Shown piece by piece: positions 1,572-27,972 of a stretch of DNA of 35,407 nt. The stretch comes from Bacteroidales bacterium (GTDB lineage: Bacteria; Bacteroidota; Bacteroidia; Bacteroidales; UBA7960). The stretch covers positions 1 to 35,407 of the forward strand of contig SKVW01000008.1 in the NCBI GenBank assembly GCA_007129255.1. The letters run 5' to 3'. Numbering within the stretch: the first letter of the stretch is position 1; each line of letters starts with the position of its first letter. The position numbers and the translations under genes are program-made. The notes under the pieces are model-generated. The model made no database searches. It was not told where the DNA came from and saw only the letters and a list, made by a program, of their open reading frames with translations.

Positions 1572-2276
1572 ATGGTTATGGTAAAAAAGATCCTAACGTC
1601 CCGTGGGGAGTTTTTACTCGAAAGGGTTTTCCATGAAAAGGAAATACAGCAAATTAAGGAGCTTGACGATGCCCTGTTGGCTCCCCATCAGGGCATATCT
1701 TATGAAGTCCTTAGGGCCATAGCATTGCAGGGAGGTCTTATTGCCTGCAAGAAAAGAGAAAAACTGGCCGGTGCAGGCATGCTGGTTCTTGAGTCAATCC
1801 CTCCGCGTATTTTTCTGGAAAAAACTACGGCATTGTTATACGGCACCATGTTAATGCCAGATTACAGAAGGTTAAAACTGGGCAGCGCCATGGGCCGTGA
1901 GCAGGAAAAAACCGCCTTGGAACATAATAAAACCAGGCTGCTGCTTTCGGTCAGACCGGAAAACATGGCCAGCATCATTATGCGGTTGCAATCAGGTTTT
2001 GATATTGTGGATTACCGTATGGATTATTTTGGGAATGATCCTGTAAGGGATGCAAGGTTCATTATGGAAAAAAAACTGAATAAAAATCCTTTGAAAAGAA
2101 AGTTGCCAAAACCTGAAAATACCCAGACTACAGAAATAATGGCCGGAGAAAAACCTGATTTTAAAGCCAGGGAAAAAATCGCCAGGCTTTTTTCGAATGG
2201 ATTTTTGGTTAAAGCTTATTTGAAGGTCCCTGGCCAAAAAAAGGCAAGGATTATTTTTTCCAGGCAGGCAGACTAA
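1572..2276 (+). CDS. GNAT family N-acetyltransferase
   Basis: A 234-residue protein with one GNAT fold at about residues 15-155. The acetyl-CoA binding motif A is visible as a strand ending in LMPDYRRLKLGSAMG (residues 94-108), where the basic loop and glycines fit the pyrophosphate of CoA. It is followed by a helix and the strand TRLLLSV, then an Asn that begins the usual next helix (PENMASIIM). The last 80 residues are lysine-rich, unlike the core, and I do not recognise them. The acceptor substrate cannot be told. A second in-frame ATG two codons later is an equally possible start. The stop overlaps the stop of the convergent kinase gene by four bases (CTAA at 2273-2276). Confidence 0.8.
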   Translation: MVMVKKILTSRGEFLLERVFHEKEIQQIKELDDALLAPHQGISYEVLRAIALQGGLIACKKREKLAGAGMLVLESIPPRIFLEKTTALLYGTMLMPDYRRLKLGSAMGREQEKTALEHNKTRLLLSVRPENMASIIMRLQSGFDIVDYRMDYFGNDPVRDARFIMEKKLNKNPLKRKLPKPENTQTTEIMAGEKPDFKAREKIARLFSNGFLVKAYLKVPGQKKARIIFSRQAD

Positions 2277-3049
2277 GAGATATCGCCCTTTGCCATTCCC
2301 AGGCTTTTTTTAAAAACCTCTTTCTTTTCTTTAAAACTTACAAAGCGTCGGGCATGGCGCCATATCTGGTCAAACACTTCCCTATGCGGCATACCTGACA
2401 GGCGGGCATATTCATCGCTGATCAGGACTGCAATTTCTTCGGTGATGGCTACCCGTGAAAAGTTTTTCAGACGGGTTTTCATATTCATCCCTTTGCGGAA
2501 TTTCATCCGGTTAAGATCGATCAGGTAAAAATCATAGCGCTTGCCGGGCTCATTAATCTTAATAAGGGTGTTGTGCGGAGAGTGGTCCAGGAGTTCAATT
2601 CCATGCTCATGCAAACGAAAAGTCATCCGGGTAAATTCGCGTACAATTCTTTCCCGGTGGGGGTAACCGGGATCGTCAATCAGGTCATTAAAAACCAGAT
2701 CAGGATAAATATGTTCGCAAATGTAATAACTGGACTTGAAAAGAAATCCTCCCGATTCTTCCACAAAACCGATGGGTGCCGGGGTACTGAATCCGTTTTT
2801 CAGCAAAAAGCATGCATATTCATATGAACGCTGTGCTTTGGATTTACGGAAATAACGGTAAGCTATCTGGTTTAAAAAAATAGGAACCTGGAATTTTTTG
2901 ATATTGATATCCGGATTGGGAGTGCGAAAAACCTTTACGGTATTCCTTTTGCCGGGACCGCACTCCTCACCCTCCTGATCAAATTTCCTGATCAGCTTCA
3001 GAATCATGGATTTTTGATCTTTATACTCCGGAGAAAAAATTATCCTCAT
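2273..3049 (-). CDS. WaaP/KdkA-like lipopolysaccharide kinase family protein
   Basis: A 258-residue protein with a small protein-kinase-like fold. The catalytic loop LLDHSPHNTLI gives Asp155 and Asn160, and the metal-binding motif YLIDLNRMKF gives Asp178. A lysine pair, Lys51-Lys52 (NIKKF), and Glu77 (SYEYA) fit the ATP-anchoring positions. Known relatives are WaaP, which phosphorylates heptose, and KdkA, which phosphorylates Kdo of the lipopolysaccharide inner core at the cytoplasmic face. A Kdo kinase role fits a Bacteroidota core, but the substrate is inferred. It lies 142 bases after hemG on the same strand and may be read from that operon or its own promoter. Its 3' end overlaps the GNAT gene tail to tail. 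Confidence 0.75.
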   Translation of the reverse strand: MRIIFSPEYKDQKSMILKLIRKFDQEGEECGPGKRNTVKVFRTPNPDINIKKFQVPIFLNQIAYRYFRKSKAQRSYEYACFLLKNGFSTPAPIGFVEESGGFLFKSSYYICEHIYPDLVFNDLIDDPGYPHRERIVREFTRMTFRLHEHGIELLDHSPHNTLIKINEPGKRYDFYLIDLNRMKFRKGMNMKTRLKNFSRVAITEEIAVLISDEYARLSGMPHREVFDQIWRHARRFVSFKEKKEVFKKSLGMAKGDIS

Positions 3050-3191
3050 CTGCTACCAATTATCTTTTCCTGCCCAAAGAATTCGCAAAAATTTCTTCAG
3101 GTTTTCAGCTAACAACAAAGACCAATAGCGAAAATAATATAATATTTTGATATGCTTGGTTTTCCGGCTTAAAAAACCCGGAAGTGCTGTT

Positions 3192-4595
3192 TCAGGGATA
3201 ATCAACAAAACCCTGGGCAATCCGCATGCCCTGGGCAATCCGGTCGGCCATGCCGATCCCTTCGTGAATGTTCCCGGCAAGAATCAAACCCGGATAAGAT
3301 TGTTGCAGTTTTAAAATGGTATCGATCCTTTCCTGTGAATCTTTCCCGTATTGGGGAATCGCATGTTTATACCGGAAAACCTCTACAAGAGCAGGATTAA
3401 ATTCCTGCAGTTCCATCATCTCCAGGAGTTCCTCTTTTACAATCCGAATAATCTCCTGGTCAGAGAGCCCGAAGTAATCTGGGTTTCTCATCCCTCCCAG
3501 GAATACATTCAGCAAGGCACCCCCATTCGGGGCGCGCCGGCTTAAAAAGGAAGAGGTAAACAATACACCCAGAATTTTTCTTTTTTCCCGCGATGGCACC
3601 AGCCCGCCAAAAGCATTGAGATTGCATCCGGTCCAGTTGTCAAACCCAAGGACCATCTGGACAATCCCTGCATATTTCAACTGCCCGAGGATATTTATAT
3701 CACGGGGAGGGATGAAAGGGAAAAGTTCAGTCAGGTGGTAGGCTCCCACCGTAGATACAAGAGTTTGGGCATCTATTTCAATTTGTTGGCCGGAGGCAAT
3801 CGTTTGTACTTTGTAGCCGCCTGGCGCAACCCCTGCCCGGGTTTGGCCGGCACCATAAAATATGTTTTGTTTACCAACCCGGGTTTCCAGTGCTTTTATC
3901 AGGTTTTCCAGGCCTCCCTCCACAGAGAAAACCTCCTTGGGCGGCTGGGGTATTTTTTCAACCAGCTTTTTTCTCAATGCTCCCCGGATGAAACTGCCAT
4001 AGGTTTGCTCCAGGTTGTAAAGTTTTGGCAAGGCATAGCGGGTGATAAGGTAGTCAGGATCTCCGGCATAAATACCGGAAATGAAAGGATCTACGGCATA
4101 ATCCAGGAAACTTTTGCCCATGCGCCGCTTTACCAGCCCGGCCACACTTTCCAAAGGCTGCTTTCCCCTTGAGCGAAATGGCTCGCCCAGCAAACGCAAT
4201 TTATCAGAAAAGGTAAACAAAGGGGTTTTCACTGCCTGTGATAATCCTGCAGGTAAGGCATGCCAACTATCTTTTTTCCAGATCAGACGCCGTTTGGCTT
4301 CCGGATTGGCAATTTCAAGCCTGCATTTCCCTTCCAAATCCCGGAAGAGTTCCACCGACTCAAAGTTGCTCAGAACTCCGGTATTGGGCCCAGCCTCATA
4401 GACAAACCCTTTTTCCTGAAAAGTCCTGATGACTCCCCCGGGTCGCTCTTCTTTCTCTAAAATGATAAAATCTATGTCCTTTTTTTTCAGGTAATAAGCC
4501 AGGGTCAGCCCGGTTAGTCCGGCACCTATGATCAATACCCTGGTCTGTCGGTATGTTTCCATCATATGATTGTTTTTCTCTGGATAAAGTTTCAT
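3192..4595 (-). CDS. hemG: Protoporphyrinogen oxidase (HemY/HemG type, FAD-dependent)
   Basis: This 467-residue flavoprotein oxidises protoporphyrinogen IX (or coproporphyrinogen) in the late heme pathway, usually at the inner membrane. The N-terminal dinucleotide fold reads VLIIGAGLTGLTLAYYL (Gly24, Gly26, Gly29), followed by an acidic ribose-binding residue in IILEKEERPGG. The C-terminal FAD motif is LILAGNIHEGIGMADRIAQG. Length matches oxygen-dependent PPOX enzymes of about 460 residues. The annotated ATG leaves a ten-residue tail before a double Met (4565 and 4562) that would give a more typical start just ahead of the flavin fold. It begins 26 bases after the permease stop, so it is probably in an operon with the TonB receptor and permease. 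Many amine oxidases share the fold, but overall similarity favours PPOX. Confidence 0.85.
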   Translation of the reverse strand: MKLYPEKNNHMMETYRQTRVLIIGAGLTGLTLAYYLKKKDIDFIILEKEERPGGVIRTFQEKGFVYEAGPNTGVLSNFESVELFRDLEGKCRLEIANPEAKRRLIWKKDSWHALPAGLSQAVKTPLFTFSDKLRLLGEPFRSRGKQPLESVAGLVKRRMGKSFLDYAVDPFISGIYAGDPDYLITRYALPKLYNLEQTYGSFIRGALRKKLVEKIPQPPKEVFSVEGGLENLIKALETRVGKQNIFYGAGQTRAGVAPGGYKVQTIASGQQIEIDAQTLVSTVGAYHLTELFPFIPPRDINILGQLKYAGIVQMVLGFDNWTGCNLNAFGGLVPSREKRKILGVLFTSSFLSRRAPNGGALLNVFLGGMRNPDYFGLSDQEIIRIVKEELLEMMELQEFNPALVEVFRYKHAIPQYGKDSQERIDTILKLQQSYPGLILAGNIHEGIGMADRIAQGMRIAQGFVDYP

Positions 4596-4621
4596 CTTTT
4601 CTGGTTATCGTCAATCAGGCT

Positions 4622-5869
4622 TTATGGACTTTGTTCGTTTTTATTCTCTGAGGAGGTTTTTTGCCCGGGATGTTCATCCTTTCCGAAAAAACGAAACCAG
4701 GCCAGCAGAAATGTGAATATCCCCAGTAGGATGCTGAAAAAGAAAAGGCCTTCATAGGAAAAGGTTCCGGCGATTTTACCGCTCAATACGGCCAATGTAA
4801 GGCTGCCCAGGTGAACGATCACAATTTGAAGAGTAAAGTCCGTTCCTTCGCGGCAATGCCGCACCCGGTCCATGGCGATGGTAAAAACGAACACCATTCC
4901 CATTCCATAAGTTCCCCATAAAAAAGCCACCCCGGCAAACATCAATGGAGGGAGCCAAATAAGGGGGCTCATGATCAGAAAAAATAAACCCGGCAAAATA
5001 TTCAGGGCGGCAAAAAGCAGGGCGGACCGGCGGCGGTTGATTTTTCTCATGATCCATCCTGCTAACATGGCAAACAGGGCTCCCATGGCGGTGCCAAAGA
5101 CCCCGGAAATGATCCCGATATCTTTTACGGTATACCCCAGATCGATCATAAAAGGCTTTACCATGGTCATGATGCCAATGAGGCTAGAGTGAAAAACTGC
5201 CAGCAAAGCCAACTGCGGCCAGATCCCCGGCTGTGAAAAAAAACTTCCAATATCTTTAAATGACACGGATTTGCTTCGGGGCCGTTTGCGGATAACGGTT
5301 TCGGGTCTGAAAAAAACCAGGGGCAGCAAGGCTGCCAGTACCACCAACGATAAACCCAGCAGCAGCCAAAACCAACCCAGGTAATGATAAACCACCAACA
5401 GTGCACCGCTGCCAATCATGGATCCAAAAAAAGAACCCATTGACTGCATACTGTTTCCCAGACTGCGTTCTTCTTTTTTGAGGGTGAGAATGGCCCATGC
5501 ATCGGTGGCAATATCCTGGGTAGCAGATGCAGTAATGGCCAGTACCATCATTACAATGATAACGGTAAACTGATGCTCCAGGCTGAAAAAGGCTATGGCT
5601 GCAACCGTGATTGCATAAAATCCCTCCGAAAAGAAAATCCATTTTTTATAACCGCCGGTAGAACTCCCTGTGCGATCTACCAATGGTGCCCATAAAAACT
5701 TAAGGACCCAGGGCAATTTCACCAGTTGCATCAACCCGATGGCTTCCAGGGAGTAGTGCTGCTGCCGCATAATTACCGGCACCACTGTAGTAAAAAAGCT
5801 CATCGGGATGGCCTGGGCCATATATAAGCTGAGCAGGGTAAAGAGTTTTCCGTTTCGTTGAGAAAGCAT
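4622..5869 (-). CDS. MFS permease, AmpG/RhtX-FptX-like
   Basis: A 415-residue inner-membrane protein with about twelve hydrophobic helices. The start, LFTLLSLYMAQAIPMSFFTT, and the following LPWVLKFLWAPLVDR (from about residue 53) are typical of the AmpG/SLC33-like branch of the major facilitator superfamily. Family members import muropeptides (AmpG) or ferric siderophores (RhtX, FptX). Location decides between these: it begins three bases after the stop of a TonB-dependent receptor and precedes hemG by 26 bases. It therefore probably carries the receptor's ligand across the inner membrane. A siderophore, ferric chelate or tetrapyrrole are all possible. The transporter class is secure; the substrate is inference. 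Confidence 0.8.
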   Translation of the reverse strand: MLSQRNGKLFTLLSLYMAQAIPMSFFTTVVPVIMRQQHYSLEAIGLMQLVKLPWVLKFLWAPLVDRTGSSTGGYKKWIFFSEGFYAITVAAIAFFSLEHQFTVIIVMMVLAITASATQDIATDAWAILTLKKEERSLGNSMQSMGSFFGSMIGSGALLVVYHYLGWFWLLLGLSLVVLAALLPLVFFRPETVIRKRPRSKSVSFKDIGSFFSQPGIWPQLALLAVFHSSLIGIMTMVKPFMIDLGYTVKDIGIISGVFGTAMGALFAMLAGWIMRKINRRRSALLFAALNILPGLFFLIMSPLIWLPPLMFAGVAFLWGTYGMGMVFVFTIAMDRVRHCREGTDFTLQIVIVHLGSLTLAVLSGKIAGTFSYEGLFFFSILLGIFTFLLAWFRFFGKDEHPGQKTSSENKNEQSP

Positions 5870-5872
5870 CCG

Positions 5873-7993
5873 TTAAAAATTGTAACGCAGGTTCATACCA
5901 AAAGTTGCCTGTCTTCCCTGCTGTACATAATTGTTTCCCAAAGCTGAAAAAGAAAAGGAATGATAATCTTCTGAGGCAATATTTCTGGCCCAAAGGTCAA
6001 CAAAAAAGTTTCTCATTTCTAATGTGAGCATGGCATTGATCAGTCCGTAAGCAGGTTGATGAAAAGAATTGGCTTCATTCCAGTAATGCCTGCCCACAAC
6101 CTGGTATCCGCCATTGATCAATAAAGCTTCCAGGATTCGGGCATTTACCGGTAAACGGTATTGCAACCCTCCAAAGAAAGTGAACCTGGGGATATAGGGA
6201 ATATAATTGCCGGAATAGTCCGCCCCATCATGGGGCTGGTTTTTGCTGAAGGTAGCATGGGTATAGCCATAATTTGCGGTAAGCTTTAACCGGGAAGTCA
6301 GCAATGCCCTTGCCTGGACCTCTGCGCCTTTGGAAACAGATGCCCCGGCATTGCTCAGCATAGCGCCCTGTCCGCTTGGAAGCATTTGATAAATCTGTTG
6401 GTTTTTCCAGTCAATATAAAACAGGGCCGTTTCCAGGTTCAGGCGGTTGTCTAAGAAAACGCCCCTGATCCCAATCTCATAATTCCAGGAAAACTCCGGA
6501 TCAAAACTCCGGTCTTGCTCACTTTCAAAAATCACGTTAAATCCGCCCGTTTTATATCCACGGGTAATGGCCGCAAAAAAGTTTGTCTCATCGAAAAGGT
6601 CGTATAGCAGGGCAAACCGGGGCAACACCTCATAAAAATCAAGGGCGCTTTCAAAATCAACCGGTGGGGGTGTTTCAAAATCCGCCTCCATATATCCCAG
6701 ATGATCGAGGGTGGCTTTTTCATAATCCAGCCTGACTCCTGCAGTCAGTGACAGTTTCGGCAGGATTAAACCTTTAAGTGTTGATTGATGAAACACTGCG
6801 GCTCCGTGGATCCTGTTGGAGGAATATTGCAGGCGCGACATCTCTGCGGGTACCATACCGAAAGCCACTGCATCTTCTCCAAATTGTATATCCAGATCGT
6901 TGTCCAGCTGCTGGTAAAAGCCAAAAACCCCAAAAACCCATTGATAGCGATCGTTGTGATTGCTTCGGGCGGTTATTTCCTGTGAAAGCATGTATTGTGA
7001 TTGTTCCTGTATCGCAAACACCAGGTCGGCCGGGGTAAAGTCCTGGTCAATAGACTGGTTGTCGCTAAAAAATTGAAAAGCCGAAACCGACTGCATCATG
7101 ACCCGGGGGGTGGAATAATTAAAAAGCAAGCCATTGGAGTTCATCAGGCGTGAATAGGATGAGGGGTCATTGTAACTTACTTCAGAGGTAACCCCTGTTT
7201 GTTTGTCGTGCAATGCATAAGGATATCCTCCCTGATCAAGGTATTCGGAATGGGTGGTGAACTCTGCAAGCCATTCAGGCGATAATTGCCAGGAAAGTCT
7301 TACACGGCTGCCGGCAGAAAAGTGCTGATCGGCCATATTGCCTGTATATTCATTTTTAAAAAATCCATCGTGACGGTTTAACCCTGCACTTACCGAAAGG
7401 CCGGCATTGTCCGAAAGCAATTGCTGGTGTGATACCCCGGTGTTCAGATAGGCAGGATTCCCTCCGGTCAGGTGCAGGTGGGTGCCCTGGAATTTAAAGG
7501 GCGAAGTACTGTAAACGTTGATCAGCCCTCCCATGGTATTTCGACCATAAAGAGTGCCCTGCGGACCCCTTAAAACCTCTATCCTTTCTACATTCAACAG
7601 GTTAAATTCAAATACCGACTTTTCAAAATACGGGATGTTGTCAACATACAACCCCACCGAAGGGGCATTGATCCTGGAGCCGATACCGCGAATGTATACC
7701 GGAGAAGTAAGCCGGGAACCATAATCGGGCATAAAAAGGTTAGGAATAAAAGTGCCGGTTTCTTTCAGGGAGTTTGTCTGCTGACGATGCAGTTCCTGCA
7801 TATCCAATACACCCGCGCTCAGGGGAAGGGCACTGATGCGGCCCGACTCCCGCATGGAAGTTATTTCTGTTTCTTCCAGGTATACTTCGGGTAAACGTGT
7901 GGTATCGCTTGCTTCGTAAACGATCTGGGCATTTAAGCTGGGAAAAATATGCAACAGTATAATGAACGGTACAAACCATCCGATTTTTTTCAT
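5873..7993 (-). CDS. TonB-dependent outer membrane receptor
   Basis: A 706-residue outer membrane receptor with signal peptide (MKKIGWFVPFIILLHIFPSL, cut near NAQ). The plug domain spans about residues 50-165, with the conserved segments VYIRGIGSRINAPSVGLYVD and VERIEVLRGPQGTLYGRNTM. The barrel follows and ends in an aromatic residue (NLRYNF), as needed for BAM insertion. There is no N-terminal carboxypeptidase-like domain, so it is not a SusC-type glycan importer. The plug resembles the FyuA/ferric-siderophore group. It is the first gene of a tight cluster with an MFS permease and hemG, which suggests uptake of an iron chelate or porphyrin. I found no riboswitch or clear promoter in the 156 bases upstream. 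Confidence 0.88.
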   Translation of the reverse strand: MKKIGWFVPFIILLHIFPSLNAQIVYEASDTTRLPEVYLEETEITSMRESGRISALPLSAGVLDMQELHRQQTNSLKETGTFIPNLFMPDYGSRLTSPVYIRGIGSRINAPSVGLYVDNIPYFEKSVFEFNLLNVERIEVLRGPQGTLYGRNTMGGLINVYSTSPFKFQGTHLHLTGGNPAYLNTGVSHQQLLSDNAGLSVSAGLNRHDGFFKNEYTGNMADQHFSAGSRVRLSWQLSPEWLAEFTTHSEYLDQGGYPYALHDKQTGVTSEVSYNDPSSYSRLMNSNGLLFNYSTPRVMMQSVSAFQFFSDNQSIDQDFTPADLVFAIQEQSQYMLSQEITARSNHNDRYQWVFGVFGFYQQLDNDLDIQFGEDAVAFGMVPAEMSRLQYSSNRIHGAAVFHQSTLKGLILPKLSLTAGVRLDYEKATLDHLGYMEADFETPPPVDFESALDFYEVLPRFALLYDLFDETNFFAAITRGYKTGGFNVIFESEQDRSFDPEFSWNYEIGIRGVFLDNRLNLETALFYIDWKNQQIYQMLPSGQGAMLSNAGASVSKGAEVQARALLTSRLKLTANYGYTHATFSKNQPHDGADYSGNYIPYIPRFTFFGGLQYRLPVNARILEALLINGGYQVVGRHYWNEANSFHQPAYGLINAMLTLEMRNFFVDLWARNIASEDYHSFSFSALGNNYVQQGRQATFGMNLRYNF

Positions 7994-8156
7994 GGTAACT
8001 TCTTTTGCCGGAGAAAGTTATGCTCCGGGAATAAAACATTTAATTTTTTGAAGGATAGTGCCCGACAATTTGAATTAAACTGAATTTAACATGTATCCGG
8101 CTCATACCGGAAAAAAATCAATCAGCCAGAACAGACTTGCGGGTCACCAGGGCGTA

Positions 8157-8501
8157 TTAAAGAAAGGAAAAAGCAGGCGGAGGCCTGGAAAGAAGAGGGG
8201 TTACAAGTTTCCGGGAATTTAAATCCAGGGGTGGATCAATAAGGAGAAAAAAACCTGAAAAAGTCAATATCGAAAGTTGATCTTCAACAATTTCATCCTG
8301 AATTTCCGAAAAATAAAATACAGGATTTTCCTCCTTTTCCGGAATTTCAAAGGAAGTATATTCCTGTTGGTTTTCCTGCCGTTCAGGATCATTCTCTACT
8401 GCTGATTTACCCTGCAGGTAAACCATGGCATATCCCGACATCGAAAACAACATCAGCAGGATATATGGCAGTGGTGAGGCAAAAAAACCAAACAAAAACA
8501 T
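8157..8501 (-). CDS. Small membrane-anchored hypothetical protein
   Basis: A 114-residue protein that I do not recognise. It has an N-terminal hydrophobic helix (about residues 3-28), an acidic middle (PEKEENPVFYFSEIQDEIVE) and a hydrophobic then proline-rich tail ending SRPPPAFSFL. Its ATG directly abuts the TAA of the preceding DUF4491 gene (8502), so the two are surely co-transcribed. It also lies 156 bases upstream of the TonB receptor on the same strand. Short proteins with PP-containing tails occur near metal or TonB-linked transport genes in Bacteroidota, but I cannot claim homology. It is probably real because of the tight spacing. Confidence 0.55.
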   Translation of the reverse strand: MFLFGFFASPLPYILLMLFSMSGYAMVYLQGKSAVENDPERQENQQEYTSFEIPEKEENPVFYFSEIQDEIVEDQLSILTFSGFFLLIDPPLDLNSRKLVTPLLSRPPPAFSFL

Positions 8502-8828
8502 TTATCTTCTATTTTTTTTTTTGACACGCCGGGGATACCAGCCTTTATTAACCCGTTCTTCCTGTTCAATGACTTCGTGTATGCCCCAAAGATTGGCAAA
8601 ACCAAAAACGGCAAAAATAGCAGAAACCAGCAAATTTCCTATTATCAACGAAAAAAGGACCCCAGCCAAACCAAATAGTAAGAAAACATAACGAAAACTT
8701 CTTCTGAAATAATACTCGCCCCTTATGCAGGCATAGCGTGTAAGCCATATGATAAACAGGGTGGCGGCCCCGGCAAGCAGCCCATCCAGATTCATTCCTC
8801 CAACAAGCCACGAACTGGTTTCAATCAT
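8502..8828 (-). CDS. DUF4491 family membrane protein (copy 2)
   Basis: A 108-residue inner-membrane protein with about three hydrophobic helices and a basic tail (RRVKKKNRR). The pattern LDGLLAG...RGEYYFRRSFRYVF...NLWGIHEVIEQEERVNKGWYP matches DUF4491, a Bacteroidota and gut-bacterial family of unknown function. The start overlaps the previous stop by eight bases (ATGATTGA at 8821-8828), a sign of translational coupling. An internal Met at residue 12 would align better with the N-terminus of copy 1 and is an alternative start. The sequence between the conserved ends has diverged from copy 1. Confidence 0.75.
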   Translation of the reverse strand: MIETSSWLVGGMNLDGLLAGAATLFIIWLTRYACIRGEYYFRRSFRYVFLLFGLAGVLFSLIIGNLLVSAIFAVFGFANLWGIHEVIEQEERVNKGWYPRRVKKKNRR

Positions 8829-9120
8829 AATCGTTCCTTTTGGGATTGCGTTTTGCCCTGCCCTTTAATACTCTTTCATGCTGGTAAAACATTTCAAGAG
8901 TACTCCAAAAAAAAGAAAAACCCAGGCAACCAAGAAGAATGGAAACCAGGGAAGAAAAAAACAAAGAAGCCATTACGCATAAAACTCCGGGTATGAAAAG
9001 TGCCCACCAGCTTTTACGGCCAAAATGGTATTCCATTTTGATCACTACCGGATGAAATACTCCGATCATGAAAAAAGCGGCCAGCCCTATCAAAAAACCC
9101 TGCCAGTTGATTGCTTCCAT
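8821..9120 (-). CDS. DUF4491 family membrane protein (copy 1)
   Basis: A 99-residue protein starting MEAINWQGFLIGLAAFFMIG, then FHPVVIKMEYHFGRKSWWAL, and ending in FFWSTLEMFYQHERVLKGRA. These segments are characteristic of DUF4491, and this copy is closer to the family norm than the next gene. Three membrane helices are predicted by eye. It is first in a three-gene string of small membrane proteins reading toward the TonB receptor. A possible -7 box (TATTTTTG on the minus strand, 9138-9145) lies about 20 bases before the start, without a good -33 partner. Function is unknown. Confidence 0.8.
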   Translation of the reverse strand: MEAINWQGFLIGLAAFFMIGVFHPVVIKMEYHFGRKSWWALFIPGVLCVMASLFFSSLVSILLGCLGFSFFWSTLEMFYQHERVLKGRAKRNPKRNDYD

Positions 9121-9251
9121 CTCGTTTTGTTTCTTTGCAAAAATAACAGAAAACCTTTACAATTTAAGCCATTCGGTACCTTTTATCGTAAAGCATAGAC
9201 TGCCAGCGGTTTATTATAACACATGAACGCTAACAATAAATAAATTTGTCA

Positions 9252-9259
9252 TATATTTG
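9252..9259 (+). promoter_or_regulatory. Possible -7 promoter box
   Basis: TATATTTG matches the Bacteroidota -7 consensus TAnnTTTG and sits 22 bases before the glycosyltransferase ATG. A second match (TAAATTTG) lies at 9241-9248. No TTG is seen at the -33 distance for either, so support is limited in this AT-rich stretch. Confidence 0.35.
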
Positions 9260-9281
9260 TTTCAGGTAAAAGCCCGCTTTC

Positions 9282-10181
9282 ATGCTCAGCATCTGCATTC
9301 CTGTATATAATTTTGACATTACCAGGCTGGTAAAGGACCTGCATCGCCAAGCCCTGGAACTGGATAAAGCCATTGAGATCCTTTTGCTGGATGACGGGTC
9401 ATCTGAAGATTTCAAGATCAGGAACAGGGTACTGAAAAAGCTTCCCCTGGTCAGGTACGAGGAGCTTCCTGAAAATACAGGCCGCAGCAAAATACGTAAT
9501 CTTCTGGCAGCAATGGCCCGCTATCCCCATCTTATTTTTATGGATTGCGATTCTGCCGTGCCCGACAATCACTACCTTGGCCGATACCTGGATGTTGCTC
9601 CTGAAAACCCGGTAGTATGTGGTGGACGGAGTTACCAGCCCGACCCACCAAACGACAATACCTACCTGCGTTGGCTTTTTGGAGTAAATAGGGAAGTAAA
9701 AAGCGCTGCCGAGCGAAGTAAAAATCCCAACCATTCCTTCATGACCAATAATTTCCTGATCTCTAAAGAACTGGTGAAAAAATTCCCTTTCAATGAGAAC
9801 CTGAAAGGTTATGGGCATGAAGACACTTTGTTTGGGTTTGAACTGAAAAAAAATGGTATTGCCATCCATCATATTGAAAACCCCCTGCTTCATATCGGTC
9901 TGGAAACCGCAGAAGAGTTTCTGAGAAAAACCAGGGAGGGCATTAAAAACCTGGTAAAGATCTATCACATGATGGATAAAGACCCCGAACTGAGCAATAT
10001 GGTCAGGGTATTAAAAACCTATGAGAATTTGCGCAGGTTTTACTTTTACAGGGTTTATGGCCTTATTTTCAATTTGATGGAAAAACCCATTGTAAAACAC
10101 CTCAACGAACCTCCTTCACGTCTTTTCTTTTTTGACCTTTATAAACTGGGCATCATCTGCAGACAGGCAAGCATCCGTTAA
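9282..10181 (+). CDS. Glycosyltransferase family 2
   Basis: A 299-residue GT-A glycosyltransferase that transfers a sugar from a nucleotide-activated donor. It begins directly with the first strand (MLSICIPVYN). The nucleotide-binding motif is LLLDDGS (Asp37, Asp38), the metal-binding DxD is MDCDSAV (Asp88, Asp90), and the catalytic-base region is GYGHED (Glu180, Asp181). The C-terminal 90 residues are helical and basic, with no transmembrane helix, so the enzyme is cytoplasmic or peripheral. There is no polysaccharide cluster around it, so the acceptor cannot be inferred. It may act in cell-surface glycan or protein glycosylation. Confidence 0.85.
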   Translation: MLSICIPVYNFDITRLVKDLHRQALELDKAIEILLLDDGSSEDFKIRNRVLKKLPLVRYEELPENTGRSKIRNLLAAMARYPHLIFMDCDSAVPDNHYLGRYLDVAPENPVVCGGRSYQPDPPNDNTYLRWLFGVNREVKSAAERSKNPNHSFMTNNFLISKELVKKFPFNENLKGYGHEDTLFGFELKKNGIAIHHIENPLLHIGLETAEEFLRKTREGIKNLVKIYHMMDKDPELSNMVRVLKTYENLRRFYFYRVYGLIFNLMEKPIVKHLNEPPSRLFFFDLYKLGIICRQASIR

Positions 10182-24401: not shown

Positions 24402-24965
24402 ATGGCAACAACTTCAGATTTCCGAAACGGACTATGTCTTGAACTTAATAACGAATTATACACCATTGTTGATTTTCAGCACGTGAAACCCGGAAAGGGA
24501 GGGGCATTTGTTCGCACCAAGCTGAAAAACCTGAAAACCGGTAAAGTGCTCCCCCACACTTTCAATGCAGGGATGAAGGTAAATATCGCAAGGGTTGAAA
24601 AACGTCCTTACCAGTTTTTGTATAAAGACGATATAGGCTATCATTTTATGCACACTTCCACTTTTGAGCAGATCATGATTCCTGAAGAGATCATCAATGC
24701 CCCTCAATTGCTCAAAGAAGGCCAGGAAGTTGATATCACTTTTCATGCCGACACCGAAACTCCTTTGAGTTGTGATTTACCCGCCTTCGTTGAGCTGGAA
24801 GTTACTTATACTGAACCCGGTGTTAAAGGCGATACCGCAACCAATACCCTGAAGCCGGCCACTATGGAAACCGGTGCCGTGGTTAATGTTCCCCTGTTTA
24901 TTGAAATTGGAGAAAAAATAAAAGTTGATACCCGCGACAATTCTTATTCCGAAAGAGTAAAATAA
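24402..24965 (+). CDS. efp: Elongation factor P
   Basis: A 187-residue translation factor that enters the ribosomal E site and relieves stalling at proline stretches. It has the three-domain EF-P layout, with the tip loop [15 protein letters not shown] (Lys32 takes the place of the modified lysine of E. coli EF-P). The C-terminal signature reads [19 protein letters not shown], followed by [16 protein letters not shown]. Modification genes are not in the window. lpxD2 starts 11 bases after the stop, so the two are probably co-transcribed. Confidence 0.96.
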
Positions 24966-26589: not shown

Positions 26590-27273
26590 TTAATTTTCTG
26601 ACAATTCCTTTATCTTTTCCTCCACCTGCCCGATTCGAAAGTAAACCGAAAACACCCACCATGCAAAAATAAACCATCCTGCCATGGCAGGGAAAAACAC
26701 CATTCGCATCCGGGGGTCAAGATCGCCGGTGGCCAGGGCAGGGTTGCCGTCTAATCCCGGATGGATTGAAGCGGTAGCCATCCTCGGGAGGATCATAATA
26801 AAAACAAAAAACAACACAAAGGCAAATACATTGTAAACGGCGGCAAGCCTTGCCCTTTTGTCCTGATCTTCCACCGATCCCCTGAGCAAAAGATAGGCAA
26901 GATAGGTGAGCATCCCCACCGCGGCCCCATTTAACTTTGGATCGTTTACCCAGAAAACACCCCAGGTAGCTTTAGCCCAGATCATACCGGTTACCAACCC
27001 AAATACACCAAATACCAATCCTGTTTTTACCGCTGCAAGGGCTTTTTGATCATCTATTGGCCGAAACCGGCGAAGGTAACGAATGCTATAGACCAGTGCA
27101 ACAAATAAAATAAACATCATGGCAAACCACATCCCTACATGGAAATAAATGTTTCTAATGGTTTGCTGAACTACCGGCAAAGCAGGTACTTCAAATAACA
27201 ACCCCCCAAAAATGACATAGATCAAAAGGAGAATCCCAAGTAATTTCCACCAGTTATGTTTCAAAAATTGCAT
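26590..27273 (-). CDS. ccmC: Heme-handling protein CcmC
   Basis: A 227-residue integral membrane protein with six helices. The heme-handling tryptophan-rich (WWD) domain is WAKATWGVFWVNDPKLNG (99-116), facing the periplasm. Flanking histidines His45 (YFHVGMWF) and His171 (ASIHPGLDG) are the expected axial heme ligands. CcmC attaches heme to CcmE with CcmD's help. Length is typical. The gene follows ccmB by 10 bases. Confidence 0.9.
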   Translation of the reverse strand: MQFLKHNWWKLLGILLLIYVIFGGLLFEVPALPVVQQTIRNIYFHVGMWFAMMFILFVALVYSIRYLRRFRPIDDQKALAAVKTGLVFGVFGLVTGMIWAKATWGVFWVNDPKLNGAAVGMLTYLAYLLLRGSVEDQDKRARLAAVYNVFAFVLFFVFIMILPRMATASIHPGLDGNPALATGDLDPRMRMVFFPAMAGWFIFAWWVFSVYFRIGQVEEKIKELSEN

Positions 27274-27283
27274 CAGTAAAAAG

Positions 27284-27940
27284 CTATTCCTTCCAAATAT
27301 AAGGAAATAATAAATTAGATAAAACCAGGGTAATGCCTGTCAACAGCAAAATGATCAAAAGGTCGGAGAAGTGTTCCGAAATAACTGCTCCCTGCATGGC
27401 CGCACCACTCACCCGGATAAGTACCAGCAACAAAGGCAAAACCAAAGGGAAGCTTAATACGGCCATCAGCGTGAAATTATTCATGGCTTTGGAAGCAATG
27501 GCAGAAACCATGCTCAGCACCGCCGAAAACCCTATAACCCCCAAAATCATATTCAGGAAAAATAAAGCCTTGTTTTGTACCACATCTCCCATAAAAACAG
27601 CAAACACAAAAAAACCGACCAGGGAAAGCACCGCCATCAGCACAGCATTGTATATGATCTTTGCATTGATCACCCCATGCGGACTGGACAAGGTATAGTA
27701 ATAAAGCATGCGCCCCTCCCCTTCCATCAAAAAGCTTTTTAGTATGGCATTAATGGAGGCAAACAATAAAATAATCCAGAATAAGGCATTCCAGGCACGT
27801 GTGCCTATGGTTCCTTCAAAAGCCAGGTATCCGACAAACACTGTGGAAATGATATACAGCAATACCCCGTTGAAAGCAAATTTTTGCTGCCATTCCAGGA
27901 ATATCTCTTTGTATATTAACGCCTTAATTTCGGAAACCAT
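27284..27940 (-). CDS. ccmB: CcmB, ABC-type permease of cytochrome c maturation
   Basis: A 218-residue membrane protein with six helices. It starts MVSEIKALIYKEIFLEWQQK, the amphipathic N-terminal helix typical of CcmB, where an ATPase docks. FEGTIGTRAWNALFWIILLF and later YTLSSPHGVINAKIIYN are CcmB signatures. With CcmA it drives release of heme-loaded CcmE from CcmC. A TTG at 27967 would add nine residues; the ATG at 27940 fits the family better. First gene of the ccmB-C-D-E cluster. No ccmA lies next to it. Confidence 0.85.
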   Translation of the reverse strand: MVSEIKALIYKEIFLEWQQKFAFNGVLLYIISTVFVGYLAFEGTIGTRAWNALFWIILLFASINAILKSFLMEGEGRMLYYYTLSSPHGVINAKIIYNAVLMAVLSLVGFFVFAVFMGDVVQNKALFFLNMILGVIGFSAVLSMVSAIASKAMNNFTLMAVLSFPLVLPLLLVLIRVSGAAMQGAVISEHFSDLLIILLLTGITLVLSNLLFPYIWKE

Positions 27941-27964
27941 TCCAGAATTTTTTTTGTATTCAGG

Positions 27965-27972
27965 CAAAAATA
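27965..27972 (-). promoter_or_regulatory. Possible -7 promoter box for ccm operon
   Basis: TATTTTTG on the minus strand matches TAnnTTTG, 25 bases before the ccmB ATG and downstream of the terminator at 28004-28037. No exact -33 TTG was found. Confidence 0.4.

Follow-up and report, generated by a model that had tools for sequence, protein, structure and literature searches.

A putative porphyrinogen-salvage operon joining a TonB-dependent receptor, a permease and protoporphyrinogen oxidase in a Bacteroidales genome

The stretch of DNA analysed here (the window, 35,407 nucleotides, positions 1 to 35,407 of contig SKVW01000008.1 in GenBank assembly GCA_007129255.1) stems from a Bacteroidales bacterium whose draft genome (G000, with the window on contig C48) comprises 3.14 Mb in 247 contigs and is 95% complete. 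Its minus strand carries, at 3192-9120, an operon in which a TonB-dependent outer-membrane receptor (5873-7993; 706 aa; PF07715 and PF00593) is followed by an inner-membrane permease of the major facilitator superfamily (MFS; 4622-5869; 415 aa; PF07690), a putative porphyrin or porphyrinogen importer, and, as the final gene, by a FAD-type protoporphyrinogen oxidase (PPOX; 3192-4595; 467 aa; TIGR00562). An initial annotation of the window had described these three genes as a tight operon with gaps of 3 and 26 nt, and the open reading frames (ORFs) were indeed found so arranged. The operon is, however, larger than that account had it: upstream of the receptor lie a leader ORF (8157-8501; 114 aa), detected with hidden Markov model and motif scans and a candidate nascent-chain arrest regulator, and a pair of DUF4491 membrane proteins (8502-9120), namely type B (8502-8828; R..CI.GEY ... 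QEERV) and type A (8821-9120; HP...MEYH ... QHERV), which score 97.6 and 110.1 bits, respectively, against PF14898 (cut-off 27). Read from 5' to 3' on this single strand, the order is DUF4491 A, DUF4491 B, leader, receptor, MFS, PPOX, with successive gaps of -8, 0, 163, 3 and 26 nt; type A overlaps type B by 8 nt, and type B ends where the leader starts.

By profile comparison the terminal gene is predicted to encode a FAD-dependent protoporphyrinogen oxidase of the HemY type (266.4 bits against TIGR00562, cut-off 97.85, covering positions 2-463 of the 470 in the profile). It carries the FAD motif GxGxxG and keeps all 97 columns whose conservation among the 82 other PPOX rows of the alignment reaches 90% or more. 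It also shares an arginine that is found in every one of 87 rows, the window included, and that we take to be the equivalent of the arginine in the KRRYV motif of Myxococcus xanthus PPOX, with a role on the substrate side. The closest solved structure is that M. xanthus enzyme (2ivd, E 3e-53), and the window protein scores 184 bits with it and 167 with plant PPOX, versus 135 with the Bacillus subtilis enzyme 3i6d.

The two transport proteins are less easily placed in named families. The permease had been called 'AmpG/RhtX-like' in the initial annotation, which is fair as a statement of resemblance, but it passes neither family's cut-off (149.8 versus 356.15 for the RhtX/FptX model TIGR02718, 145.6 versus 350 for the AmpG model TIGR00901), and membership in either was therefore rejected. 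Likewise, the receptor scores 163.7 against the siderophore-receptor model TIGR01783 (cut-off 223.5) and 48.7 against the heme-receptor model TIGR01785 (cut-off 316.85); as both values lie under the cut-offs, it was assigned to neither.

The linkage of receptor, permease and PPOX is evidently not due to chance, since it recurs within the window's family, in other families and in a majority of the loci from named genomes. In a set of 118 genomes, consisting of G000 and its relatives, clear relatives of the permease (E < 1e-40) occur in 13. Within the window's own family the order receptor-MFS-PPOX is also found in G003, G014, G034 and G046 and, with its parts on two contigs, in G007, so that all six genomes of this clade keep PPOX in the operon. 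Six genomes of other families have HemN between MFS and PPOX, and a further one (G065) has receptor-MFS-HemN without PPOX. In named genomes at least 562 stretches contain a relative of the permease, of which the best 80, minus three duplicates, gave 77 named loci. The receptor adjoins the permease in 72 of these; the order receptor-MFS-HemN-PPOX occurs in 34 and the same order extended by HemH in 16 (50 together), two further loci have HemH ahead of PPOX, and 11 show receptor and MFS alone by the rule used, partly because contigs end. For example, Bacteroides fragilis Q1F2 (L109) has receptor-MFS-HemN-PPOX (HemN 435.6 bits, PPOX 240.4 bits), and searches of its genome detected neither of HemB and HemH. 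Three Prevotella-type loci (L130, L131, L132) carry HemE-receptor-MFS-HemD on a single strand, with HemE passing TIGR01464 and HemD passing PF02602 in L130 and L132 and both being assigned in L131 by similarity clustering only. HemD directly follows MFS in L102 and L106, and HemE and HemD lie on the opposite strand in L117; HemB was not found in the searched genomes of L106, L130 and L132. Siderophore genes were not noticed among the recurrent neighbours.

In the trees of both proteins the members from the six PPOX-only loci form one group (support 100 for MFS, 99 for PPOX). For PPOX this group stands apart from the PPOX of full-pathway members of the same family, which are themselves united with support 100; for MFS the nearest types are those of receptor-MFS-HemN-PPOX-HemH loci, a placement that is weakly supported in a tree whose root is uncertain. 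Two named loci (L062, L084) show the order DUF4491-DUF4491-leader-receptor-MFS-HemN-PPOX, and as the window has the same order minus HemN, a loss of HemN seems to have occurred in its lineage.

This operon sits in a genome in which PPOX was the only gene found among profile searches for HemB, HemN (over its cut-off), HemH, CobN-type chelatases and PPOX. HemH (PF00762) had no match in G000, nor had the CobN type, for which reason CobN/HmuS was rejected as the chelatase of the window. Six genomes, all of the window's family, share the pattern of MFS and PPOX without HemB, HemN and HemH, which makes a gap in one draft assembly an unlikely cause. At the same time G000 uses heme, because it encodes the b558 subunit SdhC/FrdC of succinate dehydrogenase/fumarate reductase (197 bits) and, in the window at 26590-27967 (minus strand), CcmC- and CcmB-like genes of cytochrome c maturation; no cytochrome bd was detected in this genome. 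Among the 118 genomes HemB (PF00490) was detected in 29, HemH (PF00762, over its cut-off) in 32, PPOX (TIGR00562) in 38, HemN (TIGR00538, over its cut-off) in 32 and a CobN-type chelatase in 4. The initial annotation had named a restriction of the order to close relatives with a full heme pathway as a finding that would speak against its reading; instead, 12 of the 13 MFS-bearing genomes of this set lack HemB, as do 38 of the 49 named MFS genomes that were searched. HemH over its cut-off is lacking in 28 of these 49. The sole relative with both MFS and HemB, G059 (L044), retains no more than a C-terminal stretch of 58 receptor residues, behind a leader. Of the 38 PPOX-bearing relatives, 16 have no HemB, and 11 of these carry MFS, versus 1 of the 22 in which HemB is present (Fisher 3.6e-5); for the 32 HemN-bearing relatives the figures are 6 of 10 versus 1 of 22 (p 0.0014). 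Both tests ignore shared ancestry.

The DUF4491 pair shows an association with missing ferrochelatase. It heads the operon in all six PPOX-only loci and in L062, L084 and L115, while a DUF4491 fragment occurs in L058 and a single gene after PPOX in L113. Outside this arrangement DUF4491 directly precedes HemN-PPOX, as a pair in G050 (L147) and as a fused protein of 207 aa in G109 (L144). These two genomes, 98 and 99% complete, have HemB, HemN and PPOX, and HemH was not found in either, so that they should make protoporphyrin without the classical iron-inserting enzyme. Nine of the 38 PPOX-bearing relatives have no HemH, and 8 of these 9 show the pair at the PPOX locus (the lone exception being G104); none of the 29 with HemH does (Fisher 1.8e-7). 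This count was made on fetched PPOX loci of which some span only 3 kb. Likewise, every DUF4491-bearing row of the PPOX tree, 11 in all, comes from a genome without HemH. Glu-Tyr and Gln-x-x-Arg-Val are kept in both types; His-Pro is additionally kept in type A and Arg-x-x-Cys-Ile in type B. According to the available part of PMC6460266, Bacteroides and Prevotella have no HemH and nevertheless form heme from protoporphyrin and iron by an unidentified ferrochelatase. Gene content and context point to the DUF4491 pair as the best candidate for an iron insertion that is independent of HemH, a putative chelatase role instead of which it may have others, e.g. the handing over of porphyrin or electrons. 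HemH as ferrochelatase and HmuS as dechelatase, which bring iron into and out of protoporphyrin IX, occupy the same metabolic position as this proposed role, but DUF4491 is unrelated in sequence (Pfam) to both.

The leader, which lies directly upstream of the receptor on the same strand, has a hydrophobic N-terminus (MFLFGFF.., of the type MF.FG.F.S..PY), a variable middle and the C-terminal end LSRPPPAFSFL-stop, with RPPP five residues ahead of the stop; at E 0.001 neither Pfam nor NCBIfam offers a matching family. We scanned 3,835 ORF segments of 60-200 aa, in fetched loci that had been chosen around the operon or heme genes, for PPP preceded by R, K, N, Q, H or S, or else RAPP, RGPP or RAGP, no more than 10 residues from the stop. 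Such ends occur in 35 segments, of which 30 immediately precede a receptor gene and share its strand, one (L044) precedes the receptor remnant and the remaining four precede HemA, with none elsewhere in the scanned loci (Fisher 1e-46 for upstream versus other positions). An arginine precedes the prolines in most of them (N in L045, K in L063), and RAPP occurs in two and RGPP in three. A profile search of whole genomes found the leader in 14 of the 118, namely in 10 of the 13 MFS genomes and in G016, G038, G039 and G087, where it stands just before HemA in a run HemA-HemC-HemD-HemB-HemL (HemA and HemC checked by Pfam; the G038 copy is interrupted by a stop). The hemA-operon loci with such a leader are L175, L176, L178 and L179. 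Altogether, with the motif scan counted in, 31 of 90 operon loci have a leader, and none was seen in the loci of Bacteroides, Parabacteroides and Prevotella.

R-A-P-P ends are known arrest motifs, and the upstream ORF (uORF) CruR, which carries RAPP, precedes a TonB-dependent transporter in a different group, as stated in the accessible portion of PMC10987492; motifs of this type also figure in the available part of PMC10951233. Like ApdA/ApdP, CruR and CutF, as far as the consulted part of PMC10987492 describes them, the window leader is a small upstream ORF with an N-terminus resembling a localisation signal and an R-x-P-P near its end; it has no Pfam family, however, and the same partial source reports that most RAPP-like motifs from unrelated proteins did not arrest efficiently. 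Unlike the known peptides and uORFs of the RAPP type, which concern Sec/YidC, sucrose regulation and copper, the leader is tied to tetrapyrrole operons. By analogy with these ribosome-arrest peptides, expression of the operon is probably controlled through the leader and its RPPP end, and translational arrest would be the means. The alternative raised in the initial annotation, that iron uptake and heme synthesis are co-regulated, gains ground from this, because the same kind of leader also precedes hemA operons. The evidence for RNA pairing is mixed: leader ends pair with the start of their own receptor at -10.5 kcal/mol versus -7.3 kcal/mol when swapped (0 of 20,000 permutations), but the controls disagree: against shuffles 8 of 24 loci reach p <=0.05, whereas against random windows taken from the same locus 0 of 24 do, and of the hemA loci 0 of 4. 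A terminator-like hairpin at 8174-8187 (minus strand) falls on the RPPP codons, in a terminator scan whose total is not above chance. In the scans for control signals nothing useful emerged: sigma-70 gave 11 versus 9.6 in shuffles and terminators 14 versus 9.0, the Bacteroidales promoter pattern matched once in the window, outside the operon region of interest (1.8 expected), and Rfam gave a single match in 2000-9400, far below its gathering score. Elongation factor P relieves ribosome stalling at proline runs; its gene lies in the same window (24402-24965, plus strand), probably by coincidence.

We consider it probable that the window carries a porphyrinogen-salvage operon of anaerobe-type Bacteroidales that have lost de novo tetrapyrrole synthesis. 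Gene content, gene order, their conservation and the non-detection of HemB, HemN and HemH are the observations from which this reading starts, and the most economical account of them is that the linked enzymes mark the point at which the import enters the pathway, i.e. HemE/HemD, HemN-PPOX or, in the window, PPOX alone. The TonB receptor would bring a late heme precursor across the outer membrane and the MFS permease across the inner membrane, PPOX would convert the imported porphyrinogen to protoporphyrin IX, and an iron insertion other than by HemH, with the DUF4491 pair as best candidate, would complete heme. Since most operons of the relatives contain HemN, and often HemH, the import there would be coproporphyrinogen III; with HemN lost in the window's clade, it would there be protoporphyrinogen IX. 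The HemE-receptor-MFS-HemD order suggests that an intermediate from further up the pathway is salvaged there. A need for PPOX arises only when the arriving compound is a porphyrinogen rather than a porphyrin, and porphyrinogens persist in oxygen-free places. The proposal of the initial annotation, in which receptor and permease would supply PPOX with an imported porphyrin or heme precursor, is the best-supported reading, given that HemB, HemN (over its cut-off) and HemH were not found in G000 and that the pair stands beside HemN-PPOX-HemH or HemE/HemD elsewhere; it is from associations of this kind that we infer the ligand and the direction of transport.

Several observations weigh against this reading. 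The chief one is the siderophore-like fold of the receptor: its AlphaFold model (pLDDT 86.8, pTM 0.84) is predicted to be closest to the siderophore receptor FyuA (PDB 4epa, E 9e-42), followed by PiuA, Fiu, FptA and FhuA, and the first heme receptor, PhuR, appears at rank 35, although the fold class of such a model does not fix the ligand. FRAP and NPNL-type motifs, which we take to be marks of TonB-dependent heme receptors, are present in none of 87 receptors. Over all 118 genomes MFS and HemB loss are not associated (p 0.18), because 72 of them have none of MFS, HemB, HemN, PPOX and HemH, and the tree-aware test of MFS versus HemB gave no signal, with too few independent pairs for significance. 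HemB is kept in 11 of the 49 named MFS genomes, and G001, a genus mate of the window's genome (73% complete), has neither MFS nor PPOX. For DUF4491 the tree-aware comparison with HemH loss has three independent pairs, 3 to 0 (p 0.25), and in the named set DUF4491 lies near the operon in 3 of 28 genomes without HemH and in none of 21 with it (p 0.25). Furthermore, the absences are those of draft genomes, and PPOX would be superfluous if protoporphyrin IX itself were imported.

The fold match lends itself to another explanation, in which receptor and permease are a siderophore or metallophore pair of the FptA/FptX or FyuA type that the hem genes joined through shared regulation of iron and heme. 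FyuA is the best match of the receptor in sequence as well as in fold, and the permease resembles RhtX/FptX. Nevertheless we regard this explanation as unlikely: neither family cut-off is passed, the recurrent neighbours, among which no siderophore gene was noticed, are late or middle heme enzymes including HemE and HemD, and the genomes are mostly without HemB, so that only import would provide these orphan enzymes with a substrate. A second explanation, in which heme itself is the cargo of the pair and PPOX either survives as a relic or detoxifies leaked porphyrinogens, draws on the missing HemH of G000 and on the 72 genomes with none of these genes, most of which presumably import heme whole given that 106 of the 118 have a b558 gene. 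It appears distinctly improbable, as the PPOX retains every conserved column and the invariant arginine and stays in the operon throughout the clade, and as the import of heme has no use for the HemN that other copies of the operon carry. Finally, that the window imports coproporphyrinogen III, as its relatives and its lack of HemN might imply, and that a CgoX-like PPOX turns it into coproporphyrin III for use as such, e.g. as a metallophore, is very improbable, because the PPOX is nearer to the M. xanthus and plant enzymes than to that of B. subtilis and no PF00762 chelatase was found that could take coproporphyrin further.

Taking the salvage reading further, one may speculate, doubtful as it is, that in HemH-less Bacteroidales a two-subunit DUF4491 membrane complex with conserved His, Cys and Glu-Tyr would be a novel ferrochelatase, that import and hemA tetrapyrrole operons would share control by an R(P/A/G)PP stalling leader, and that the window would be the smallest complete module for import, oxidation and insertion. 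Our search of the open-access literature returned no description of the operon, of the leader or of a link between DUF4491 and heme, which is no proof of their absence in print. Oral and gut Bacteroides and Prevotella depend on external porphyrin, and the operon names a putative transporter pair for the precursors, B. fragilis included; related clusters in common gut bacteria would supply candidates for long-missing parts of heme metabolism, and DUF4491 offers a concrete gene-pair candidate for the missing chelatase of HemH-less relatives. If the salvage reading is true, porphyrinogen exchange among bacteria of anoxic habitats becomes a genetic trait recognisable from genome sequence, and with the leader, arrest-peptide control would reach heme metabolism as well.

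Among known systems, porphyrin uptake in Bacteroidales is represented by Hus of Porphyromonas gingivalis, an organism that keeps HemD, HemN, HemG and HemH (available part of PMC13227078) and whose growth is supported by coproporphyrin III, not by uroporphyrin III (accessible text of PMC6173696). Hus consists of the hemophore HusA, the receptor HusB, HusC as a proposed MarR-type regulator and HusD of unknown function, as given in the portions of PMC4222909 and PMC10100897 that were available. Like the system proposed here, it takes up porphyrin in Bacteroidales via a TonB receptor; unlike the window operon, no MFS permease or hem enzyme is named in those portions of its description, and the two were compared by description only. 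In having a receptor and an AmpG/RhtX-type permease side by side the window resembles FptA/FptX, RhtA/RhtX and FyuA, the last being also nearest in fold, but it differs from such siderophore receptor-MFS pairs in that its own pair stays under the family cut-offs and has enzymes of the heme pathway as partners.

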